Positions 9,283 through 43,816 of a DNA stretch of 54,677 nucleotides are shown here, piece by piece. Position numbers and translations under genes: made by a program. Positions within the stretch are counted from its first letter, which is position 1. Each line of letters opens with the position of its first letter. Source of the DNA: Gemmatimonadaceae bacterium (GTDB lineage Bacteria; Gemmatimonadota; Gemmatimonadetes; Gemmatimonadales; Gemmatimonadaceae); the NCBI GenBank assembly GCA_036273715.1, contig DASUHB010000018.1, forward strand, positions 1 to 54,677, written 5' to 3'. The notes below the pieces were generated by a model, which had not been told where the DNA came from, ran no database searches, and saw only the letters and a list, made by a program, of their open reading frames with translations.

Positions 9283-9386
9283 CGATGAACATGAAAGGTT
9301 CGTCGGGAATTTCCGGGAAACGTGACCGCGAAAAAAAATCGAACAAACGATAGATGGATCGTGAGGCAGGGCGGACGGGCGGAGTG

Positions 9387-9514
9387 CTACGCTCATGAAG
9401 ACGCGGACAAAGCAGGGCACAAGGGACAAAGCACCGAGAAAAGAATCAACGCCTTGGTGTTGCTCGTGTCGTGTCAGCTGTGTCCGTGCTGTGCCCGCGT
9501 CTTCATGAGCGTAG
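9387..9514. repeat. Inverted-repeat (MITE-like) element, copy 1
   Basis: The ends are a perfect 20-bp inverted repeat, CTACGCTCATGAAGACGCGG at 9387-9406 and its complement at 9495-9514. Inside the ends the two arms stay imperfectly complementary (GGACA/GGCACA-rich) for another 30 bp or so. The same 20-mer bounds the larger element at 37686-38114. There is no coding sequence inside, so this is a small non-autonomous element or structured repeat. Confidence 0.85.
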
Positions 9515-27249: not shown

Positions 27250-28155
27250 ATGTTCACCATCGATCTCACGGGCCGGCGCGCACTGGTCGCAGGCGTGGCC
27301 GACGACGGCGGCTACGGCTTCGCGATCGCGAAGGCGCTCGCGGAATGCGGCGCAACCGTTGTCGTCGGCACGTGGCCGCCCGCGCTCAACATCTTCAACA
27401 ATCTCCTGGAGCGCGGCAAGATGGATGCGTCGCGCCGCTTGTCGAGCGGCGCAATGATGGACTTCGAGCGCATCTATCCGCTCGACGCCGCGTTCGACAC
27501 GATGGCCGATGTCCCCGACGACATCCGGACCAACAAGCGGTACGCGAACGCCGGCGACTTCACCATTGCCGGCCTGGCCGCGCGCCTCGTGTCGGATTTC
27601 GGCGAACGGCCGATCGACATCGTCATCCACTCGCTTGCTAACGGGCCCGAGGTGAAGAAGGCGTTGATGGACACGAGTCGCGCCGGATACCTCACGGCGG
27701 TGGGCGTGAGCGCGTATTCCATGGTCGCGTTCGTCCAGCGCTTGGGTCCGCTCCTGCGGCCGCACGGCTCGTTTCTCTCGCTCACGTATTTGGCGAGCGA
27801 GCGCGTGATTCCGGGCTACGGCGGCGGCATGTCCTCGGCGAAGGCGGCGCTGGAGAGCGACACGCGCGTGCTGTCCTACGAAGCGGGACGCAGGTTCGGC
27901 GCGCGCGTGAACTGCATCTCGGCGGGCCCGCTCGCGTCGCGCGCGGCGAGCGCCATCGGCATCATCGAGAAGATGGTCGATTACGCGTCGGCCAATGCGC
28001 CGCTCACGGAGCCGCTCACGCCCGCGGAGGTCGGGGCGACGGCGGCGTTTCTGTCGAGCGGGCATGCGAGCGGTATCACCGGCGCGGTGGTGTACGTGGA
28101 CAAGGGCTACCACGCGATGGGCATGGCGACGCGTGCCGAGCCGCCTAACGCCTAA
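27250..28155 (+). CDS. fabI: Enoyl-[acyl-carrier-protein] reductase (FabI type)
   Basis: A 301-residue short-chain-dehydrogenase-type reductase that catalyses the last step of each fatty-acid elongation cycle with NAD(P)H. It shows the modified nucleotide-binding motif VAGVADDGGYGFAIAKAL, the insertion after beta-3 (WPPALNIFNNLLERGK), HSLANGPEV, the active site YLASERVIPGYGGGMSSAKAAL (Lys near residue 200) and AGPLASRAASAI. The insert is of the kind known from plant and apicomplexan enoyl reductases. The ATG at 27250 starts the domain; the frame remains open upstream through the tandem repeats, which is not coding. Its stop overlaps the facing decarboxylase by 11 bp. Confidence 0.92.
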   Translation: MFTIDLTGRRALVAGVADDGGYGFAIAKALAECGATVVVGTWPPALNIFNNLLERGKMDASRRLSSGAMMDFERIYPLDAAFDTMADVPDDIRTNKRYANAGDFTIAGLAARLVSDFGERPIDIVIHSLANGPEVKKALMDTSRAGYLTAVGVSAYSMVAFVQRLGPLLRPHGSFLSLTYLASERVIPGYGGGMSSAKAALESDTRVLSYEAGRRFGARVNCISAGPLASRAASAIGIIEKMVDYASANAPLTEPLTPAEVGATAAFLSSGHASGITGAVVYVDKGYHAMGMATRAEPPNA

Positions 28156-29599
28156 CGGAGGACGCCAACCCGGCGACCTCGCGCACGAAGTCGGCCATGT
28201 CCTCGCGCGTCGTGCGGAATCCGATCGGACAGATGCGCAGCGACAGCGCGCCGCGGATGCGCGTGCTCGAGATGAAGAACCGTCCGCCCGCATTCACGGC
28301 GGCGTTGATGCGCTCGTTGAGCGCGTCGAGCGCCGCCGCGTCGTCCGTGCCGGCAGGATGCGCCCGGAAGCACAGGATGCCTAACGTCGCCGGCGCGAGC
28401 ACTTCCAGGTCCCGCTCGCGGCGCACGAGGGCTTCCGCGTGCGCGGCGAGCGACAGGCTGTACGAGATCGCCGCCCGCAGCGCGTCGGTGCCGAAGTAGC
28501 TCACGCTCAGCCACACTTTGAGCGCGCGCGCATAGCGCGTCAGCTGCTCGCCGTAGTCGGCAAAGTTGATCTCGTCGCCATCGCTTTCGGCATCCTTCAA
28601 ATAGTCGGGATAGATCCGGAACGCGGCCTTGAGCCGCGTGGGCTCCCGCGCCATCACGCATCCGCACTCGAACGGGACGTAGAGCCATTTGTGCGGGTCG
28701 AGCGTCACCGAGTCGGCGCGCTCGATCCCCGCGAGCGCTCGGCGGCCGTCGTCGGCGAGAACGGAGAACCCGCCGTACGCCGCGTCGACGTGCAGCCAGA
28801 TGCCTTCGCGCGCCGCGAGGTCGGCCAGCGGCCCCAGGGGATCCACGGCGCCGGTGTTGGTCGTGCCGCCGTTGGCCACGATCATGAGCGGGATGAGACC
28901 CTGCGCCCGATCCCGGGCAATGGCGTCGGCCAGCCGATCCACCGGCAGGCGAAATGCGGCGTCGCAGGTGATGAGGCGCACGTTAGGACGGGGCACGCCG
29001 GCCACCCAGGCGGCGCGGATGGCCGACGAATGCGTCTGGTCCGAGGCGTACACGGTGAGCCGCGCGATGCGGGACCCATCGTCGCCCACCACGGCGTGGC
29101 GCGCGGCGATCATCGCGGTGAGATTGGCCGCCGATCCGCCGGTCGTCAGCAGCCCGCCCGCCCCGTTAGGCATGCCGAGCCAGGTGCGGAACCATTCGAG
29201 GACCAGGACTTCGATCTGGTTGGGGCCCGCCGCCACCGGCCAGACGCCGGCGAAGAAGTTGTAGCCGGTGGCGAGCCAGTCGCCTAACGCTGCCGGAAAC
29301 GTGGGGCAGCTCGGGACGTACGCGATGAATCCCGGGTGCGGTTCCCGCGCCGCGTGCGCGAAGACGCGCTCGCGCAAGAATGCGAGCAGCGCGTCGATGT
29401 CCGAACCCGCCGCGGGCGGCGGCGCCGCGATCAGCCGCTCGGTCGCCCGCCGCGGCAGCGTGTCCAACACACGCTGCGTGCGCAGCGTCGACAGATGCTC
29501 GGCGATGGTGTCCGTGACGCGATAGCCGAGTCGCCGCATGGTGTCGGCGTCGAGATCGAGCGGGGAGCGCGGATACGTTCCTGTCGGTGCGTCTGGCAT
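28145..29599 (-). CDS. PLP-dependent group II (aromatic-type) decarboxylase
   Basis: A 484-residue decarboxylase of the aromatic-L-amino-acid/tyrosine/tryptophan decarboxylase family. It has the N-terminal swap region (HPGFIAYVPSCPTFPAALGDWL), LLTTGGSAANLTAMIAAR, the PLP-stacking region WLHVDAAYGGF and the PLP-lysine motif DPHKW at about residue 300. Length is typical. The substrate is probably an aromatic amino acid, but that is family inference. It runs convergently into fabI, the two stop codons lying inside a doubled GCCTAAC word. Confidence 0.88.
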   Translation of the reverse strand: MPDAPTGTYPRSPLDLDADTMRRLGYRVTDTIAEHLSTLRTQRVLDTLPRRATERLIAAPPPAAGSDIDALLAFLRERVFAHAAREPHPGFIAYVPSCPTFPAALGDWLATGYNFFAGVWPVAAGPNQIEVLVLEWFRTWLGMPNGAGGLLTTGGSAANLTAMIAARHAVVGDDGSRIARLTVYASDQTHSSAIRAAWVAGVPRPNVRLITCDAAFRLPVDRLADAIARDRAQGLIPLMIVANGGTTNTGAVDPLGPLADLAAREGIWLHVDAAYGGFSVLADDGRRALAGIERADSVTLDPHKWLYVPFECGCVMAREPTRLKAAFRIYPDYLKDAESDGDEINFADYGEQLTRYARALKVWLSVSYFGTDALRAAISYSLSLAAHAEALVRRERDLEVLAPATLGILCFRAHPAGTDDAAALDALNERINAAVNAGGRFFISSTRIRGALSLRICPIGFRTTREDMADFVREVAGLASSVRR

Positions 29600-36172: not shown

Positions 36173-37666
36173 ATGCGACATCCCGTGTTCGACCTGCTCG
36201 AGCAGGACATGGAGCGCGACGCTGCGCTCCCATTTGTCGATCTCGCGGCGCGTTACTTCCTGCGCACGCGCGACGGCACGGATCCCGTCTCGACGGCGCT
36301 CGGCTCCGCCGAGATCGCCCCGCGCTTCGACGAACCGCTCCCGGAGAGCGGCCATCCACTCAATGAAGTGGCGCGTCGCGTCGAGCTCGACGTCATGAAT
36401 GCGATGAACCAGCTGGCGCATCCCATGTGTATGGGGCATCAGGTGTCGGCGCCGCTGCCGATTGCCGTCTGGATGGAACCGGTGATCGCGGCTATGAATC
36501 AATCGGTGGCGGTCGCCGAGATGTCGCCGAGCGCGACGGTGCTCGAGACGCAGCTGATCAGGTGGATGGCCGGTCTCATCGGATGGCACGCGGGCGCGGG
36601 CGGCACGCTGACGTCGGGCGGGACGGAGGCGACGTTCACGGCGCTGCTGGCCGCGCGCGCGCGGGCGTTGCCTAACGCGTGGGAGCACGGCGTGTCGGCC
36701 GCCGACGGGCCGCTGCCGGTGGTGGTGTGCGGCGAGCACGCGCACTACGCCGTCACGCGCGCGGTGGCGCAGTTAGGCCTCGGGCTCGACCGCGCGATCG
36801 CCATCCCGTCGCGCGATTGGCGCATGGACGTGGAGGCGCTCACCGTTCGGTTGCAGGCGCTGGCCGCGGAGGGCGTGCCGGTGATGGCGGTGGTCGCCAC
36901 GGCGGGCAGCACGGCGACCGGCTCGTTCGACGATCTCGACGCGATCGGCGCACTGTGCGAGGCGCACGGGGTCTGGTTCCACGTCGACGCGGCGCACGGC
37001 GCGTCGGCGCTGCTCTCGTCCACGCATCGGGACCGTATGCGCGGCGTCGCGCGCGCGCGATCGGTGGCGTGGGATGCGCACAAGATGATGCTGCTGCCGC
37101 TCTCGGCCGGCATGCTCCTGGTGCGCGACGAGCGCGACCTGGATGGCGCGTTCGCCCAACGCGCGCCGTATCTCTTTCACGGCGACGAAGACGGCCGGGT
37201 GTGGGACCAGGGCACGCGCAGCTTTCAGTGCTCCCGCCGCGCCGATGCGCTCAAGGTGTGGGCGGCGCTCGAGCGCTACGGCGCTTCCGGGTTAGGCGCG
37301 ATCTACGATCACCTGTGCGGCGTCGCGCGCGAGCTCTACGGCGCGATCTCCGTGCATAGCCGGTTCGTCGCGCTGCACGAGCCCGAGTCGAACATCCTCT
37401 GCTTCCGATGGGTGGGCGCGGCCGGCGAAGACGCCGCCGCCGTGGACGAGTTCAACCGCGTCCTGCGCGAGCGCTACAACCGCAGCGGCCGCGGCTGGAT
37501 CACGACCACGGTGTTAGGCGGCCGCCGCGTGCTGCGTGTGACGGTGATGAATCCGCGCACGTCGCGCGGCCATATCGTCGCGCTGCTGGACGGGCTGTCC
37601 GAGGAAGCCACATCGATGCAGCGAGAAGCACGTTCAGGCGTCGCAGCTGGTGGTCAACAAGTGTAG
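36173..37666 (+). CDS. Second PLP-dependent decarboxylase
   Basis: A 497-residue group II PLP decarboxylase, only distantly like the one at 28145-29599. It has HPMCMGHQVSAPLPIAVW, GGTLTSGGTEATFTALLAAR, WFHVDAAHGASALLSS with the PLP-binding Asp, and the Schiff-base Lys in WDAHKMMLLPLSAG (about residue 303). It resembles glutamate/DABA/cysteine-sulfinate-type decarboxylases, but the substrate cannot be told. The start at 36173 (MRHPVFDLLEQD) matches family length; upstream in-frame sequence is arginine-rich and overlaps the preceding gene. Confidence 0.85.
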   Translation: MRHPVFDLLEQDMERDAALPFVDLAARYFLRTRDGTDPVSTALGSAEIAPRFDEPLPESGHPLNEVARRVELDVMNAMNQLAHPMCMGHQVSAPLPIAVWMEPVIAAMNQSVAVAEMSPSATVLETQLIRWMAGLIGWHAGAGGTLTSGGTEATFTALLAARARALPNAWEHGVSAADGPLPVVVCGEHAHYAVTRAVAQLGLGLDRAIAIPSRDWRMDVEALTVRLQALAAEGVPVMAVVATAGSTATGSFDDLDAIGALCEAHGVWFHVDAAHGASALLSSTHRDRMRGVARARSVAWDAHKMMLLPLSAGMLLVRDERDLDGAFAQRAPYLFHGDEDGRVWDQGTRSFQCSRRADALKVWAALERYGASGLGAIYDHLCGVARELYGAISVHSRFVALHEPESNILCFRWVGAAGEDAAAVDEFNRVLRERYNRSGRGWITTTVLGGRRVLRVTVMNPRTSRGHIVALLDGLSEEATSMQREARSGVAAGGQQV

Positions 37667-38113
37667 AACGTTGAGATCCGGCGCTGGCATCTACGCTCAT
37701 GAAGACGCGGACACGGCACGGACACAACGGACACGGCACGGTGAAAAAAGGCAACGAGAGGCGTCGACCAATCCGGTTCGAGGCGCCTGGCGGGTCTCTT
37801 CGCTCATGATTGAAAGACAACAACAGTGAAGCAGGAAGGCGGATGACGAACGGCGTTCCCTCGGGGTCGGCGTCACGTTGTTGGTGGTTGTGTTGTGCTC
37901 TTCATAAAAAAACGCCTCGGTTATCCGTTAGGCAACGTCGCCACCGCCGCGCAGCATGGTGTCTTTCATTATCGCTTTGTTATCCTTTAAACCATGACCG
38001 AAGTAGACCCGCCAGGCGCCTCGAACAGGATTGGTCGACGCCTCTTATTCAGTTTTTCCCGTGTCGTGTCCCATGTGTCCGTGCTGTGTCCGCGTCTTCA
38101 TGAGCGTAGATGC
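37667..38113. other. Gene-free region occupied by a long inverted repeat
   Basis: The 447 bp between the decarboxylase stop and the GxxExxY stop are almost entirely the inverted-repeat element described next. No gene. Confidence 0.7.
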
Positions 38114-38114
38114 C
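37686..38114. repeat. Long inverted-repeat element, copy 2, next to the GxxExxY gene
   Basis: Two arms of about 110 bp (37686-37797 and 38005-38114) are near-perfect inverted copies. Both ends read GGCATCTACGCTCATGAAG inward, including the perfect 20-mer at 37691-37710 and 38090-38109 shared with the 9387-9514 element. Arms also share GCGTCGACCA and GAGGCGCCTGGCGGGTCT. The 207-bp centre contains a GTTAGGC word (37927) and the segment similar to 26988-27035. No open frame in the element has coding character. The right end coincides with the GxxExxY stop codon. Confidence 0.9.
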
Positions 38115-38566
38115 TACTCCGAATCTTCCCCTGCCTCTGAACTCGGAGGCCCCGCCGCGATCTCACGCCCGGACGCCCTACGCCACGAATTAAGGCAGAT
38201 CACTCGCTTGAATACCGGACGCTCGCCAAACTGCAGCAGGAGTCCGATCTCGAGCTTGGTAGCTCGGAGATAGTTGAACAGCTGCGCACTTCCGATCTCC
38301 GGCCGCAACGTGGTCGACTTCACTTCGATGATGAGTCGGCCATCGACAAGCATGTCGAGGCGCTGATCCGCCAACGGTTCGCCCTTGTAGAGCACCGTCA
38401 CGCCAACTTCGCGCAGTACCTGATGGCCCTTGGCCACGAGCTCACGATGCAGCGCGGCCTTGTAGATGTGTTCGAGAAAGCCGTGACCAAGCGTGTCATA
38501 CACTTCGAGGAACGCGCCGATCACCGAACCGGTGAGCTGCTTTTCGACAAGACTGGTCGAACTCAT
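38114..38566 (-). CDS. GxxExxY-family putative PD-(D/E)xK nuclease
   Basis: A 150-residue protein with the defining motif GFLEHIY (Gly29, Glu32, Tyr35) near the N-terminus. The nuclease-like core is RLDMLVDGRLIIEVKST, with Asp71, Glu81 and Lys83 in PD-(D/E)xK spacing. YLRATKLEIGLLLQFG is also typical. The C-terminal 30 residues are low-complexity. Family members are small, often multicopy, and of unknown biological role. The TAG stop directly abuts the end of the long inverted repeat, and a partial copy of the repeat end lies upstream of the gene at 38681-38695, so the gene is bracketed by repeat ends. Confidence 0.85.
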   Translation of the reverse strand: MSSTSLVEKQLTGSVIGAFLEVYDTLGHGFLEHIYKAALHRELVAKGHQVLREVGVTVLYKGEPLADQRLDMLVDGRLIIEVKSTTLRPEIGSAQLFNYLRATKLEIGLLLQFGERPVFKRVICLNSWRRASGREIAAGPPSSEAGEDSE

Positions 38567-38680
38567 GGCTCAGACGATAGTCGAAAAGCAACGGGCTCCA
38601 GCAGCATTTCATGCAGCTGGAGCCCGAACATCCCCGCCGGCTCGGCTCGCGCGCAGGCGAAGGCCCTCTCGGTTTTGTGT

Positions 38681-38700
38681 CCGCGTCTTCAGTAGCGGAA
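38681..38700. repeat. Partial copy of the repeat-family end
   Basis: CCGCGTCTTC plus AGTAGCGGA matches the inverted-repeat end CCGCGTCTTCATGAGCGTAG over the first ten bases and then with gaps. It is preceded by TTGTGT, as in the intact copies (GTGTGT/GCTGTGT). It has the same orientation as the right end at 38090. Confidence 0.5.
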
Positions 38701-38725
38701 CGTCGATGGCTCTCTGCGCGGACGA

Positions 38726-39226
38726 CTACAACGCCCGTTTGATTGCGCCCTCGAGATCCTGGTCGCCGCCTAACCCGGTGTACACCACCTTCCCGGCTTT
38801 GTTGATCACCACGACGTACGACGTCGCGGGCACGTTGTACGCGCTCACCGCGTTCCCGTCCGTGTCGTAAACCATCGCCTGGGTGTAGTGGTACTTCTGC
38901 GCGTACAGCTTCACGCGCTCGGGCGACTGATTTACCGAGACGGCGACGTCCACGAACGTCACCTTCGGAGAATATTTCTTGACCATGTCGAGGAACTTGG
39001 GCTCGAGCTCCTTACAGTTGCTGCACCACGTCGCCCAGAACTCGAGCACCACCGGCGATTTGCCGATGTATTGATCGAGATTCACGCTCTTGCCGTCGAG
39101 CGTGTGCACCACCGCGCCGGGAGCCGCGGCGCCAACGGGCACCCCGATCTCGTCCTGCGCAGCGAGCGCCGGCGCCGCGGCCATGGCCACGCACGCCACG
39201 AGCATTGCCACCCGGGTCCACATCAT
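38726..39226 (-). CDS. Periplasmic thioredoxin-like (TlpA-type) protein
   Basis: A 166-residue protein with a signal peptide (to about AAPALAAQ) and a TlpA/ResA-like thioredoxin fold. The redox motif WCSNC gives Cys68 and Cys71 after EFWAT, and the cis-Pro lies in NVPATSYVVVI. Its ATG overlaps the stop of the upstream CcdA-like gene (ATGA), so translation is coupled. It probably receives electrons from that membrane protein to reduce periplasmic disulfides. The same frame is open far upstream, but only the part from MMWTRVAML has coding character. Confidence 0.88.
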   Translation of the reverse strand: MMWTRVAMLVACVAMAAAPALAAQDEIGVPVGAAAPGAVVHTLDGKSVNLDQYIGKSPVVLEFWATWCSNCKELEPKFLDMVKKYSPKVTFVDVAVSVNQSPERVKLYAQKYHYTQAMVYDTDGNAVSAYNVPATSYVVVINKAGKVVYTGLGGDQDLEGAIKRAL

Positions 39227-39936
39227 ATCAACAGTTGCCCCATCTTGATAAGATAATACTCGGCCGCGCCGAGCATGATGATCGCGAACGCCTTTTTCAC
39301 CCACATCATCCACGAGCCCGCCCGCGGCAGCCGCGACAGCGTTCCGGCGGAGACGCCCACCGCCACCAACAGCGTGCTCATGCCTAACGAAAAGACGAAC
39401 AGATAGAGAAAGCCTAACACGGCGCTGTGCGTCGTCGACACCCACGTCAGCACCGCCGCCATCACCGGCGCCGAGCACGGCGCCGCCACCAGCCCCGACG
39501 CCGCCCCCATCGCGAACGTCCCCGCGAATTGCCCGCCCCGTCCCGCCGCCGACGCCCGCTGCACGAATCCCTGCGGCACCCGCACCGGAATCACGTCCAC
39601 CATCGCCAACGCCGCGATGATCAGCAAGTTCGCCATCCCAAAATACAACCACGGGTTCGTGCTCACTGTCCCGAACAGCGTCCCGCTCAGCCCGGCGAAC
39701 AATCCCAGCCCCGCGTACACCAGCGCCAACCCCAGCACGTAGCTCAACGTCAGCGTCAGCGGCCGCCATCGGGATGCCGCCGCCGCCGTCGACTGCCCGC
39801 CGACCAACGACGCGGTGATCGGAATCATCGGATAGATGCACGGAGTCAGGCTGGTGAGCACCCCCCCGAGGAACACCAACGGCACCGCAACCACGGGCCG
39901 CGACGAGAGCATTGCCGAGATGTCGGGCGAGAGCAT
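39223..39936 (-). CDS. CcdA/DsbD-like transmembrane thiol-disulfide transporter
   Basis: About 237 residues with six membrane segments. The two redox cysteines are in LTSLTPCIYPMIP and GLVAAPCSAPVMAA, the CcdA/DsbD-beta signature. It carries electrons from cytoplasmic thioredoxin across the inner membrane, here most likely to the thioredoxin-like partner encoded with a 4-bp overlap. The start at 39936 (MLSPDISAM) fits the first helix; ATG at 39951 is also possible. No periplasmic DsbD-type domains are fused. Confidence 0.88.
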   Translation of the reverse strand: MLSPDISAMLSSRPVVAVPLVFLGGVLTSLTPCIYPMIPITASLVGGQSTAAAASRWRPLTLTLSYVLGLALVYAGLGLFAGLSGTLFGTVSTNPWLYFGMANLLIIAALAMVDVIPVRVPQGFVQRASAAGRGGQFAGTFAMGAASGLVAAPCSAPVMAAVLTWVSTTHSAVLGFLYLFVFSLGMSTLLVAVGVSAGTLSRLPRAGSWMMWVKKAFAIIMLGAAEYYLIKMGQLLI

Positions 39937-40087
39937 GGCCACACAGTACATACTCCACCACGATCCGCGGAAGTTCCCACGCGAAGAACGCCCTGCCTTG
40001 CGCGCACGCTGATACGGGGAGAAGGTTTCACGAGCGGGCCGTCCGCCGTGGAGACCCGTCAGCATCCATTTCACACTCTGTCATCGC

Positions 40088-42142
40088 ATGGCGGCGCCGC
40101 GTTCGTCTTCACCCTCACCTCGCCCCGCACGCACTTCGCCACAGGCGCGCTCGCGCCGCACTCCCGCCGGCGCCAACCCACCGCCCCGCAAGCCGCCGCA
40201 CATCGCCATCGAGTGCGTGTCGCCGTCGCTCGATGATGCGCGTTGGGCAGTCAAACGCATCCTCGGCGATTCGTTCGAGGTGAGCGCCGACATCTTCAAA
40301 GATGGTCACGACGTCCTCTCGGCGCGCGTACGCTTCAAGCCGCCCGGCCTCGCCGAGTGGCGCACGGCGCCGATGGTCTTCGACTACGACTCTGATCGCT
40401 GGACGGGAGGCTTTCCGCTCGATGCCATCGGCGGCTGGAGCTTCACGGTCGACGCGTGGACCGATCGCTTCGCGACCTGGCGCGCCCAACTGGAGAAGAA
40501 GATCGATGCGGGACAGGATGTCTCGCTCGACCTGCTCGAGGGCGCGCAGCTGGTGGACACGGCAACGCACCGTGTGCGCTTTGGCGACACGCGGCGCGAG
40601 CTGGCGCAGTGGTCGGCGCGGCTGCGCGATGCGTCGAGCGCGTGGCGCGAGCGCGCACGCGAAGGACTCGGCCTCGAGCTCTTGGCGCTCATGGAGCAGC
40701 ACCTGGCGCCCGACGACCTCACGTCGTACGACCGCGAGCTGCGCGTGTGGGTGGACCGCGAGCGGGCGCGCTTCGCCGCCTGGTACGAGATGTTTCCGCG
40801 CTCGCAGAGCGGCGATGCGTCGCGGCATGGCACCTTTGCCGACGCCGCGCGTGCGCTGGCGCGCATCGCCGAGTTAGGCTTCGACGTCGTCTACCTGCCG
40901 CCCATCCATCCGGTGGGTGTGACGCAGCGGAAGGGGCGCAACAACGCGCTCGCGGCGTCGCCCGATGATCCCGGCAGCCCGTGGGCCATCGGCGGCCCCG
41001 CCGGTGGCCACACGGCCATCGAGCCGCGGTTAGGCACGATCGATGACTTCGACCGGTTCGTCGTCGTCGCCCATCGGTTAGGCATGGAGGTCGCGCTCGA
41101 CTACGCGCTCCAATGCTCGCCCGACCACCCCTGGCTGCGCGAGCACCCCGACTGGTTCTTTGCCCGCCCCGACGGCACGCTCAAGTACGCCGAGAACCCG
41201 CCGAAAAAATACGAGGACATCTATCCGCTCGACTTCTGGTGCGACGATCGCGACAACCTCTGGAATGCCTGCCGCGACATTCTGCTGTTCTGGATCTCTC
41301 ATGGCGTGAATACGTTCCGCGTCGACAACCCGCACACCAAGCCGTTCGCCTTCTGGCAGTGGCTCATCGACGACATCCACGCCCGACACCCCGACGTGAT
41401 CTTTCTTTCCGAGGCCTTCACCCGCCCCAAGCGCATGAAGCACCTCGCCAAACTCGGCTTCACACAGTCGTACACGTACTTCACGTGGCGGACCACGTCG
41501 TACGAGCTGCGCGAATATCTCGAGGAGCTCACGCAGCGGCCGGCGCGCGAATACCTGCGGCCCAACTTCTTCGCCAACACGCCGGACATCCTGCACGAGT
41601 ACCTGCAACTCGGCGGACGCGCGGCGTTCCGCGTCCGGTTGCTGCTCGCCGCCACGCTGTCGCCGCTTTACGGCATTTACAGCGGATTCGAGCTCGCCGA
41701 AAACGTGCCGCTCAGGCCGGGCAGCGAAGAGTACCTCGACTCGGAGAAGTACGAGCTCAAGGCGCGCGATTGGGCGTCGCCGGCGAGCCTCGACCTCGAC
41801 ATCGTGCGCGTCAATCGCCTGCGCCGCGAGAACCGCGCGCTGCAGCGGGCCACGAATCTGACCTTCCACCACTCGGACAACGATCGGATCCTCTTCTACC
41901 ACAAGACGGCCGGCGATCTCGGCGCGCCTAACGATCTGCTCATCGCCGTCAACCTCGACCCGCTGCGCGCCCAGGACACGGTGGTCGAGGTCCCGCTCGA
42001 CGCCCTCGGCGTGGGCCCCGATGCGACGTACGTCGTCGAAGATCTCCTCACCGGCGTGCGCTACACCTGGCGCGGCGCCCGCAACTACGTTCGCCTCGAC
42101 CCGCGCAACGAACCCGGACACGTCTTCCTCGTGCGGCGTTAG
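40088..42142 (+). CDS. glgE: Maltosyltransferase GlgE
   Basis: A 684-residue GH13_3 enzyme that adds maltose from alpha-maltose-1-phosphate to the non-reducing end of alpha-1,4-glucan. After a low-complexity Pro/Arg-rich start, the N-terminal domain begins at IAIECVSPSLDDARWAVKRILGDSFEVSADIFKDGHD, characteristic of GlgE. The barrel has DVVYLPPIHPVG, nucleophile Asp in FRVDNPHTKPF (about 413), acid/base Glu in FLSEAFTRP (about 442) and the GlgE-type SYTYFTWR. Its stop codon TAG lies inside a GTTAGGC word. First gene of the glucan/trehalose run. Confidence 0.93.
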   Translation: MAAPRSSSPSPRPARTSPQARSRRTPAGANPPPRKPPHIAIECVSPSLDDARWAVKRILGDSFEVSADIFKDGHDVLSARVRFKPPGLAEWRTAPMVFDYDSDRWTGGFPLDAIGGWSFTVDAWTDRFATWRAQLEKKIDAGQDVSLDLLEGAQLVDTATHRVRFGDTRRELAQWSARLRDASSAWRERAREGLGLELLALMEQHLAPDDLTSYDRELRVWVDRERARFAAWYEMFPRSQSGDASRHGTFADAARALARIAELGFDVVYLPPIHPVGVTQRKGRNNALAASPDDPGSPWAIGGPAGGHTAIEPRLGTIDDFDRFVVVAHRLGMEVALDYALQCSPDHPWLREHPDWFFARPDGTLKYAENPPKKYEDIYPLDFWCDDRDNLWNACRDILLFWISHGVNTFRVDNPHTKPFAFWQWLIDDIHARHPDVIFLSEAFTRPKRMKHLAKLGFTQSYTYFTWRTTSYELREYLEELTQRPAREYLRPNFFANTPDILHEYLQLGGRAAFRVRLLLAATLSPLYGIYSGFELAENVPLRPGSEEYLDSEKYELKARDWASPASLDLDIVRVNRLRRENRALQRATNLTFHHSDNDRILFYHKTAGDLGAPNDLLIAVNLDPLRAQDTVVEVPLDALGVGPDATYVVEDLLTGVRYTWRGARNYVRLDPRNEPGHVFLVRR

Positions 42143-42163
42143 GCGGACCACCAACTCGCTACT

Positions 42164-43816
42164 ATGAGCTCGCTCTGGTACAAGGACGCCGTCATCTATC
42201 AGATCCACATCAAGTCGTTTCGCGACAGCAACCGCGATGGCTACGGCGACATCCCCGGACTGATCGAGAAGCTCGACTACATCGAATCGTTAGGCGTCAA
42301 CTGCCTCTGGCTGCTGCCGTTCTATCCCTCGCCGCTGCGCGACGACGGATACGACATCGCGGAGTACGAAGCCATCCACCCGCACTACGGCGCCCTGGCG
42401 GACTTTCAGCGGCTGCTCGAGGAAGCACACGCCCGCGGCATCCGCATCATCACGGAGTTGGTCATCAACCACACGTCGGACCAGCACCCCTGGTTCCAGC
42501 GCGCGCGCCTCGCTCCCAAAGACTCGGCCGAGCGGGCGTTCTATGTGTGGAGCGACGATCCCACGCGGTACGGCGACGCGCGCATCATTTTCACCGACAC
42601 CGAGAAGTCCAACTGGGCATGGGACCCGGTCGCCGGCCAGTTCTACTGGCACCGCTTCTTCAGCCACCAGCCCGACCTCAATTTCGACAACCCCGCCGTC
42701 GTCGAAGCGGTGAAAGATGTGATGCGGTTCTGGTTTCGCATGGGCGTGGACGGCATGCGACTCGACGCCATCCCGTACCTGGTCGAACGGGATGGCACCA
42801 ACTGCGAAAACCTTCCCGCCACGCACGCGGTGCTCAAGGAGCTGCGCCGTACCCTCGACGAGGAGTTCGACGGGCGGATCTTTCTCGCGGAGGCAAACCA
42901 GTGGCCGAGCGATGTGATCCCGTACTTCGGCGACAGCGACGAATGCCACATGGCGTTCCACTTCCCGCTCATGCCGCGCATGTACATGGCGCTGCGCCAG
43001 GAAGACCGCAGCCCGATCATCGAAATTCTCGCGCAGACGCCGGCGCTGCCTAACGATTGCCAGTGGGCCATCTTCCTGCGCAATCACGATGAGCTCACGC
43101 TCGAGATGGTCACCGATCTGGAGCGCGACTACATGTACCGCGAGTACGCGCGCGATCCGCGAATGCGCATCAACATCGGTATCCGCCGCCGCCTCGCGCC
43201 CCTGCTCGACAACGGTCGCCGCCAGATCGAATTGATGAATGCCCTCCTCATGACCATGCCCGGCACGCCGATCATCTATTACGGCGACGAGATCGGCATG
43301 GGCGACAACATCTATCTGGGCGATCGCAACGGCGTGCGCACGCCAATGCAGTGGACGCCGGGATGGAACGCGGGCTTTTCCGAGGGCGACCAACAGGCCC
43401 TGTACTATCCGCTCATCGTCGATCCGCCCTACGGATACCAGGCGATCAACGTCGCATCGGAAGAGCGCACGCAGACGTCGCTGCTGCGCTGGATGCGGCG
43501 GATCATCAAAGTGCGCAAACAGTATCACGCATTCGGGCGCGGCAAGTTCGAGATGCTGCTGCCGGAGAACCGGCGCGTGCTGACGTATCTGCGGCGTCAC
43601 GAAGACCAGGTGATCCTCTGCGTGAACAACCTGTCGCGCTTCGTCCAGCCGGTGGAGATCAACCTGCAGCGATGGAAAGGGTGGACGCCGCTCGAGCTCA
43701 TCGGCACCGTGCGGTTCCCGGTGATCGGCGACCAGCCGTACTTTCTGTCGTTAGGCCCGCACACGTTCTACTGGTTTCTGCTCGTCGCGCCACAGCCGGA
43801 CGGCGCGGGGTCGTGA
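42164..43816 (+). CDS. treS: Trehalose synthase (maltose alpha-D-glucosyltransferase) TreS
   Basis: A 550-residue GH13_16 enzyme interconverting trehalose and maltose. It begins with the typical WYKDAVIYQIHIKSFRDSN and has catalytic Asp in MRLDAIPYLVERDGTNCENLP (about 199), Glu in FLAEANQWPSD (about 243) and Asp in LRNHDELTLEM (about 308). Length fits single-domain TreS; the maltokinase is separate, not fused. Its TGA overlaps the GTG start of the maltokinase gene. Confidence 0.94.
   Translation: MSSLWYKDAVIYQIHIKSFRDSNRDGYGDIPGLIEKLDYIESLGVNCLWLLPFYPSPLRDDGYDIAEYEAIHPHYGALADFQRLLEEAHARGIRIITELVINHTSDQHPWFQRARLAPKDSAERAFYVWSDDPTRYGDARIIFTDTEKSNWAWDPVAGQFYWHRFFSHQPDLNFDNPAVVEAVKDVMRFWFRMGVDGMRLDAIPYLVERDGTNCENLPATHAVLKELRRTLDEEFDGRIFLAEANQWPSDVIPYFGDSDECHMAFHFPLMPRMYMALRQEDRSPIIEILAQTPALPNDCQWAIFLRNHDELTLEMVTDLERDYMYREYARDPRMRINIGIRRRLAPLLDNGRRQIELMNALLMTMPGTPIIYYGDEIGMGDNIYLGDRNGVRTPMQWTPGWNAGFSEGDQQALYYPLIVDPPYGYQAINVASEERTQTSLLRWMRRIIKVRKQYHAFGRGKFEMLLPENRRVLTYLRRHEDQVILCVNNLSRFVQPVEINLQRWKGWTPLELIGTVRFPVIGDQPYFLSLGPHTFYWFLLVAPQPDGAGS

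Follow-up and report, generated by a model that had tools for sequence, protein, structure and literature searches.

The closest described counterpart of the locus analyzed here is the pairing of RAYT (TnpA-REP) genes with REPINs. The enzyme gene is chromosomal, mostly single-copy and flanked by inverted repeats, and the flanking repeat is scattered between genes as gene-free pairs. Each repeat family has one enzyme lineage, and the gene-bearing units show no clear target duplication. The enzyme is an HUH/Y1 transposase. The REP unit is a palindrome of 20-40 bp with a GTAG or CGTC tag (PMC3733652). MITEs driven by DDE transposases are short gene-free elements with inverted repeats at their termini, a target duplication of fixed length and an empty site, while autonomous insertion sequences (IS) carry one small gene between inverted ends and are present or absent at orthologous sites. 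G-rich heptamer arrays, GGGAATC in Xanthomonas and GGGGA(C/T)T in Nostoc, are mostly intergenic and chromosomal, and in Xanthomonas they often form inverted pairs; no enzyme is linked to the arrays in the report that describes them (PMC4692102).

GxxExxY proteins are common. Their function is not known, and in the open-access literature that we searched they are named in two papers, each time once and in passing. Here we analyzed a GxxExxY gene and its surroundings in a 54,677-nucleotide stretch of DNA from a Gemmatimonadaceae bacterium, referred to below as the window. An initial annotation of the window had noticed an inverted-repeat element next to this gene and likened the pair to RAYT genes and REP elements.

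Results

Organization of the locus

The features of the locus are listed in Table 1. The inverted-repeat element described in the initial annotation indeed abuts the gene, whose stop codon (38114-38116) shares one base with the ATGCC end of the element. The outer arms are composed of repeated ACGGACAC units. Complementarity of the arms is 86% between 37674-37747 and 38053-38126 and 89% between 37745-37797 and 38005-38057. As single-stranded DNA, the element has a predicted fold of -168 kcal/mol (z against shuffles in Table 1). Four exact copies of the 20-mer CTACGCTCATGAAGACGCGG are found in the window, two in this element (37691 on the + strand, 38090 on the - strand) and two in the gene-free element that had been reported to share it (9387 on the + strand, 9495 on the - strand); shuffles expect 0.01. 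The gene-free copy folds with a z of -8.75 against shuffles. The decayed end noticed beyond the gene is real. It is oriented like the 38090 copy, which places the GxxExxY gene between inverted ends. An Rfam search of the locus returned no match. The window is also rich in the heptamer GCCTAAC, with 81 occurrences versus 2.1 expected, located along both strands (for example at 28143-28156, 37513 and 38768).

Table 1. Positions of the repeat and gene features in the window.
Feature	Position	Strand	Description
R1 hairpin element	37686..38114	.	429 bp; ends GGCAT-CTACGCTC...GAGCGTAG-ATGCC; fold z -22.7
Left R1 end	37691..37741	+	20-mer, then quasi-tandem CGGACAC array
Right R1 end	38060..38109	-	inverted copy of the left end
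GxxExxY gene	38114..38566	-	150 aa, PD-(D/E)XK-type; GxxExxY motif, D71, E81-x-K83
Decayed R1 end beyond the gene	38677..38697	-	19/21 identity to the intact end; closes an inverted pair with 37691
Stretch missing or replaced at the orthologous site of sister species	37627..38715	.	
Gene-free R1 core hairpin	9387..9514	.	left part belongs to a type A MITE (left end near 9298)

The GxxExxY protein

The gene is intact, and its assignment to the PD-(D/E)XK-type GxxExxY proteins was borne out. The product matches TIGR04256 (E 4e-30; 104.7 bits, cut-off 35) and PF13366 (PDDEXK_3; E 2e-30; 106.3 bits, cut-off 22). G29, E32, Y35, D71 and K83 do not vary among 60 sequences, and at least 90% of these sequences have E81; the conserved positions cover both the GxxExxY motif and the D..ExK residues. 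An active nuclease is plausible, because the catalytic D-x9-E-x-K residues are invariant or nearly so. An AlphaFold2 model built from 60 sequences (pLDDT 86, pTM 0.78) has a restriction-endonuclease-like fold. No match was found in a PDB search by sequence. The closest fold matches are restriction-endonuclease-like nucleases: SSO0001 (4ic1), which we take to be Cas4, at Z 9.1, others at 6 to 8 and Hjc at 6.8, where values below Z 8 indicate a shared arrangement alone and the relatives named at such values were not used for kinship. Canonical GxxExxY proteins are nearly absent from plasmids (8/72,556) and absent from the phages searched (0/50,697), and no relative of the window protein (P0001) was found in viral contigs.

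Inverted repeats around other GxxExxY genes

The window genome contains three GxxExxY genes. Each has inverted flanking repeats of its own family: R1, our name for the repeat family of the window gene, a GGATAACGAAAAGGATGC-type at C52:19.6 kb and a CGGACAAAGCCGGAC-type at C52:22.7 kb. All three families are also dispersed elsewhere in the genome. The proposed pattern of a gene plus scattered gene-free repeat copies is therefore true for 3/3 genes here, and it extends to Gemmatimonadota and to other phyla and domains. Other GxxExxY genes do have inverted repeats at their ends, but the repeat is of a separate family for each gene, not the 20-mer of the window.

In Gemmatimonadota, an inverted repeat of at least 35 bits surrounds the gene at 35/82 loci (43%), versus 5/566 controls (0.9%) at positions displaced along the same contigs. 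The window gene reaches just 30 bits here, owing to the decay of its far end. A single scan with a canonical alignment across GTDB genomes provided 80 further loci, 74 of them testable. Among these loci from other phyla and archaea, 39/74 are bracketed (53%, a value that holds for canonical members only, since the loci are the best matches to one query set), versus 0/543 controls. Bracketed loci span Chloroflexota, Bacteroidota, Planctomycetota, Acidobacteriota, several Proteobacteria and archaea (Methanothrix, Methanosarcinales); the sole testable cyanobacterial locus is not bracketed. Roughly half of the loci tested lack a clear bracketing repeat. Direct repeats of at least 35 bits are located beside the gene at 16/74 loci, and whole hairpins on both sides account for several of the strongest. 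Some canonical genes have a complete hairpin on either side. The association of GxxExxY genes with bracketing repeats is near certain.

Repeat arms and copy number

The arms of canonical units repeat CACRGAG at intervals of 8, 9 or 10 bp from start to start. This heptamer occurs 220 times in 80 arms, in nearly uniform orientation, versus 7 times on average when the arms are shuffled. The canonical unit has a median length of 480 bp from end to end, and its outer ends are TTCACCAC... and ...GTGGTGAA. The window protein is a member of a divergent subfamily, whose arms are built from other iterated motifs (ACGGACAC, GCGGAT, GCGAAT). Arm similarity correlates with protein similarity. The coefficient r is 0.50 for all pairs, 0.41 for pairs that join Gemmatimonadota to other phyla and 0.34 for pairs within those other phyla, and 2000 permutations reached none of the three values. 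The covariation may reflect recognition of the arms by the protein, and also fits their plain inheritance as a unit.

At least three CACGGAG pairs are present in 12/14 genomes with a high-scoring canonical GxxExxY protein versus 5/85 others (Fisher p 5e-10, with a score threshold for the split that was chosen after the list was seen). A genome contains up to 161 copies. One exception, G080, has 108 pairs and no GxxExxY match, and could represent a lost enzyme, a missing contig or another enzyme. Pairs of the reversed control, GAGGCAC, are abundant in G057 (43) and G038 (26), where they constitute a further repeat family.

The R1 family and its carriers

The 20-mer has 73 copies in the window genome with up to two mismatches, and its reversed control has none. 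The family was read from 34 paired copies in the window genome (G000) and its near relative G004. The R1 core is a hairpin of ~125 bp with arms of repeated ACGGACAC-like units, and GGCAT followed by the 20-mer is the end common to copies outside MITEs. Most copies, the one at 9387 among them, have the 20-mer inside a larger element. Type A/C elements with R1 cores have GGTTCTTCCGGAATTTCCGGGAAACG ends, are about 300-350 bp long and create an 8-bp target duplication, for example CGAAAAAA (L234, compared with the empty site L282). Type B elements with R1 cores have GGTAGAGGTACAGTTTGG ends, are about 229 bp long and create 9-bp target duplications, CACGTGTGC (L028 versus L285) and CGTGAGCAG (L240 versus L284). 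Types A/C and B thus combine the terminal inverted repeats, fixed-length duplications and empty sites of DDE-driven MITEs, a combination not seen in the gene-bearing GxxExxY units.

The initial annotation had regarded the 20-mer as a mobile end. We dropped it as a transposon end, as the MITE termini were found further out. Because most R1 copies are located inside MITEs with termini and 8-9-bp duplications of their own, much of the spread of R1 probably occurred via some other transposase, and the GxxExxY protein need not have spread these copies. The gene-linked R1 copy and a few others (L008, L020, L027, L058, L235) have no A/B/C ends.

One R1-carrying element is found in G004 and missing in G000 (L251 versus L289), and others show the reverse. 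These differences and the empty sites indicate that the presence/absence variation is real. In a survey of 99 relatives, G000 and G004 are the only genomes rich in the R1 20-mer, and they are the two that carry the identical GxxExxY protein; the two are near relatives, so this co-occurrence counts as one observation. Type A/C MITEs insert in or beside the T-runs of terminator-like hairpins (L234, L015, L232, L251), with 8-bp duplications where readable. A nested insertion, type B inside a truncated type A, is found in G000 (L084, C66:104 kb), and the type B element is absent from G004 (L248).

Variation between sister species

In the sister species G002, the site orthologous to the window locus is 24 bp long, versus ~1.1 kb here. 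G001 and G005 have other hairpins, built of related repeats. In addition, the C52:19.6 kb unit is absent in G003, and the C52:22.7 kb unit is absent in both G002 and G003. The presence/absence variation on which the proposed mobile system depended is thus found between species, with empty sites for MITE copies and for all three gene units. The convergent intergenic site at the window locus (L385, L389) contains hairpin repeats that differ between sister species, like a hot spot. GxxExxY proteins also have a patchy occurrence, in 46/99 relatives.

Target-site duplications are found for one part of the system. They are 8-9 bp long for R1-carrying MITEs, but a search on canonical gene-bearing units found nothing above shuffles; at the orthologous sites of gene-bearing units, sequence identity is too low for duplications to be read.

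The divergence between G000 and G004, about 4%, is reduced to about 1% over 38.1-43.8 kb (window 38073-43800 versus L152), which suggests that this stretch is a recombination tract. The two genomes share 540 identical bases over the GxxExxY gene. Selection as a reading of this perfect conservation was dropped, since the gene is inside the wider low-divergence tract.

A parallel in PF05635 loci

Inverted arrays are also found around genes of the PF05635 (four-helix 23S_rRNA_IVP) family in Gemmatimonadota, where they bracket 22/28 loci (L252-L281) versus 1/105 controls. These arrays are composed of 7-8-bp G-rich units such as GGAGTCAGGAGTCAGG and TAGGTGTTAGGTGTTAGG, and the whole unit has a median length of 565 bp. 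PF05635 genes are present in 47/60 relatives, with up to 12 copies each. In the open-access literature on IVS, four-helix proteins and dispersed repeats, we found nothing that links them to such units.

Discussion

We consider it moderately likely that the gene, together with its flanking inverted repeats, is one unit of a widespread gene-repeat system, which resembles RAYT/REPIN in its logic and is built on an unrelated nuclease. The bracketing and its enrichment, the dispersed gene-free copies, the absence at orthologous sites and the covariation of arms and protein are the observed parts of this reading. In such a unit, a single-copy PD-(D/E)XK GxxExxY nuclease would be flanked on both sides by a short motif iterated in inverted arrays. 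Working as a dimer or oligomer on these arrays or on an extruded hairpin, it would recognize the iterated ends of its own unit and cut them. Repair or recombination would then copy the ends, with or without the gene, to new intergenic sites. Solo hairpins would be the non-autonomous products, and in the window genome many R1 ends would have spread later inside MITEs by another transposase. Action of the enzyme on its own repeats is the inferred part of this reading. Several observations count against this reading. The location of most R1 copies in MITEs with 8-9-bp duplications implies another transposase, canonical units show no duplication above chance, about half of the loci are unbracketed, and G080 has the repeats but no GxxExxY match. 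In addition, R1 accompanies the identical gene in two genomes that are near relatives, and the covariation may be due to inheritance as a unit.

The GxxExxY gene could instead be a passenger, captured between two repeats that are parts or ends of MITEs moved by DDE-type transposases encoded elsewhere. We regard this as unlikely. R1 cores do reside inside type A/C and B elements, with duplications and clean empty sites in a sister species. However, the gene-linked copy lacks the ends of these elements, no target duplication above chance was found for the units, and the arms covary with the protein. Moreover, the same heptamer array surrounds the same protein family in many phyla and in archaea, which is not expected from repeated capture by unrelated MITEs.

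A role of the nuclease in DNA repair, as an enzyme of the host or a domesticated one, is rather improbable. Such an enzyme would resolve cruciforms, repair DNA at these hairpins or restrain the repeats without spreading them, and its gene would be regulated by the adjacent repeats. The resemblance of the model to Cas4-like nucleases, restriction enzymes and Hjc resolvases (Z 9.1 to 5.7), the very stable hairpins formed by the repeats and the chromosomal location of the genes are consistent with such a role. However, fold similarity at these Z values is no proof of function, and the patchy occurrence, the orthologous absence and the separate repeat family of each gene favor a selfish unit. A coincidental position of a common repeat beside a small gene is very improbable: R1 is abundant (73 ends) and one adjacency could be due to chance, but the counts of bracketed loci in both surveys, set against their controls, contradict it.

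Compared to described systems, the proposed gene-repeat unit is closest to RAYT/REPIN. The two share a chromosomal, mostly single-copy gene with inverted repeat flanks, one enzyme lineage per repeat family, gene-bearing units without clear target duplication and gene-free pairs of the flanking repeat between genes. The likeness drawn in the initial annotation therefore stands for the gene-repeat logic, but not for sequence or fold. RAYT membership was rejected: the gene matches only PF13366/TIGR04256, the model is restriction-endonuclease-like, and no HUH/Y1 domain is found. Compared with the single tagged palindrome of REP units, the picture is mixed: GxxExxY ends are iterated motifs of 8-10 bp, and R1 ends read CTACG...CGTAG, but single ends are iterated motifs and not palindromes, and canonical CACRGAG ends contain neither tag. 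Unlike RAYT, the canonical arm sequence is common to phyla and domains.

The R1 carriers A/B/C are similar to MITEs, whereas the gene-bearing unit has neither such termini nor a duplication above chance, and encodes a nuclease-like protein, not a transposase. Like an autonomous IS, it has one small gene between inverted ends and is present or absent at orthologous sites. It is not an IS, because no transposase is encoded: it has no known transposase domain, no duplication was seen, each repeat family here has one gene, and its length is about 480 bp. The arms resemble the Xanthomonas and Nostoc arrays in being iterated short motifs, and differ from them in being linked to a gene. In motif and period, those arrays are closer to the PF05635-linked arrays, and PF05635 is a possible partner of these unexplained heptamer arrays.

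Neither the canonical repeat strings nor the term PDDEXK_3 was found in the open-access papers searched. Because its enzyme type, its end architecture and its cross-domain ends match no system known to us or described in the open-access literature without preprints, the gene-repeat system appears to be new in kind. A broader proposal falls a little short of an even call. The GxxExxY gene and its ~480-bp heptamer-array unit would represent an ancient, undescribed class of minimal chromosomal element in Bacteria and Archaea, whose enzyme would itself recognize the heptamer (CACRGAG or a lineage variant) and use it to copy the unit and gene-free hairpins derived from it, and a second class would be built on 23S_rRNA_IVP proteins with inverted 7-8-bp G-rich arrays.

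If GxxExxY proteins act on the arrays that surround them, the family would gain a testable job, and the scattered CACRGAG-type hairpins would gain an origin. The GxxExxY nuclease would then be a second enzyme type among the few systems in which a chromosomal gene maintains its own intergenic repeats.
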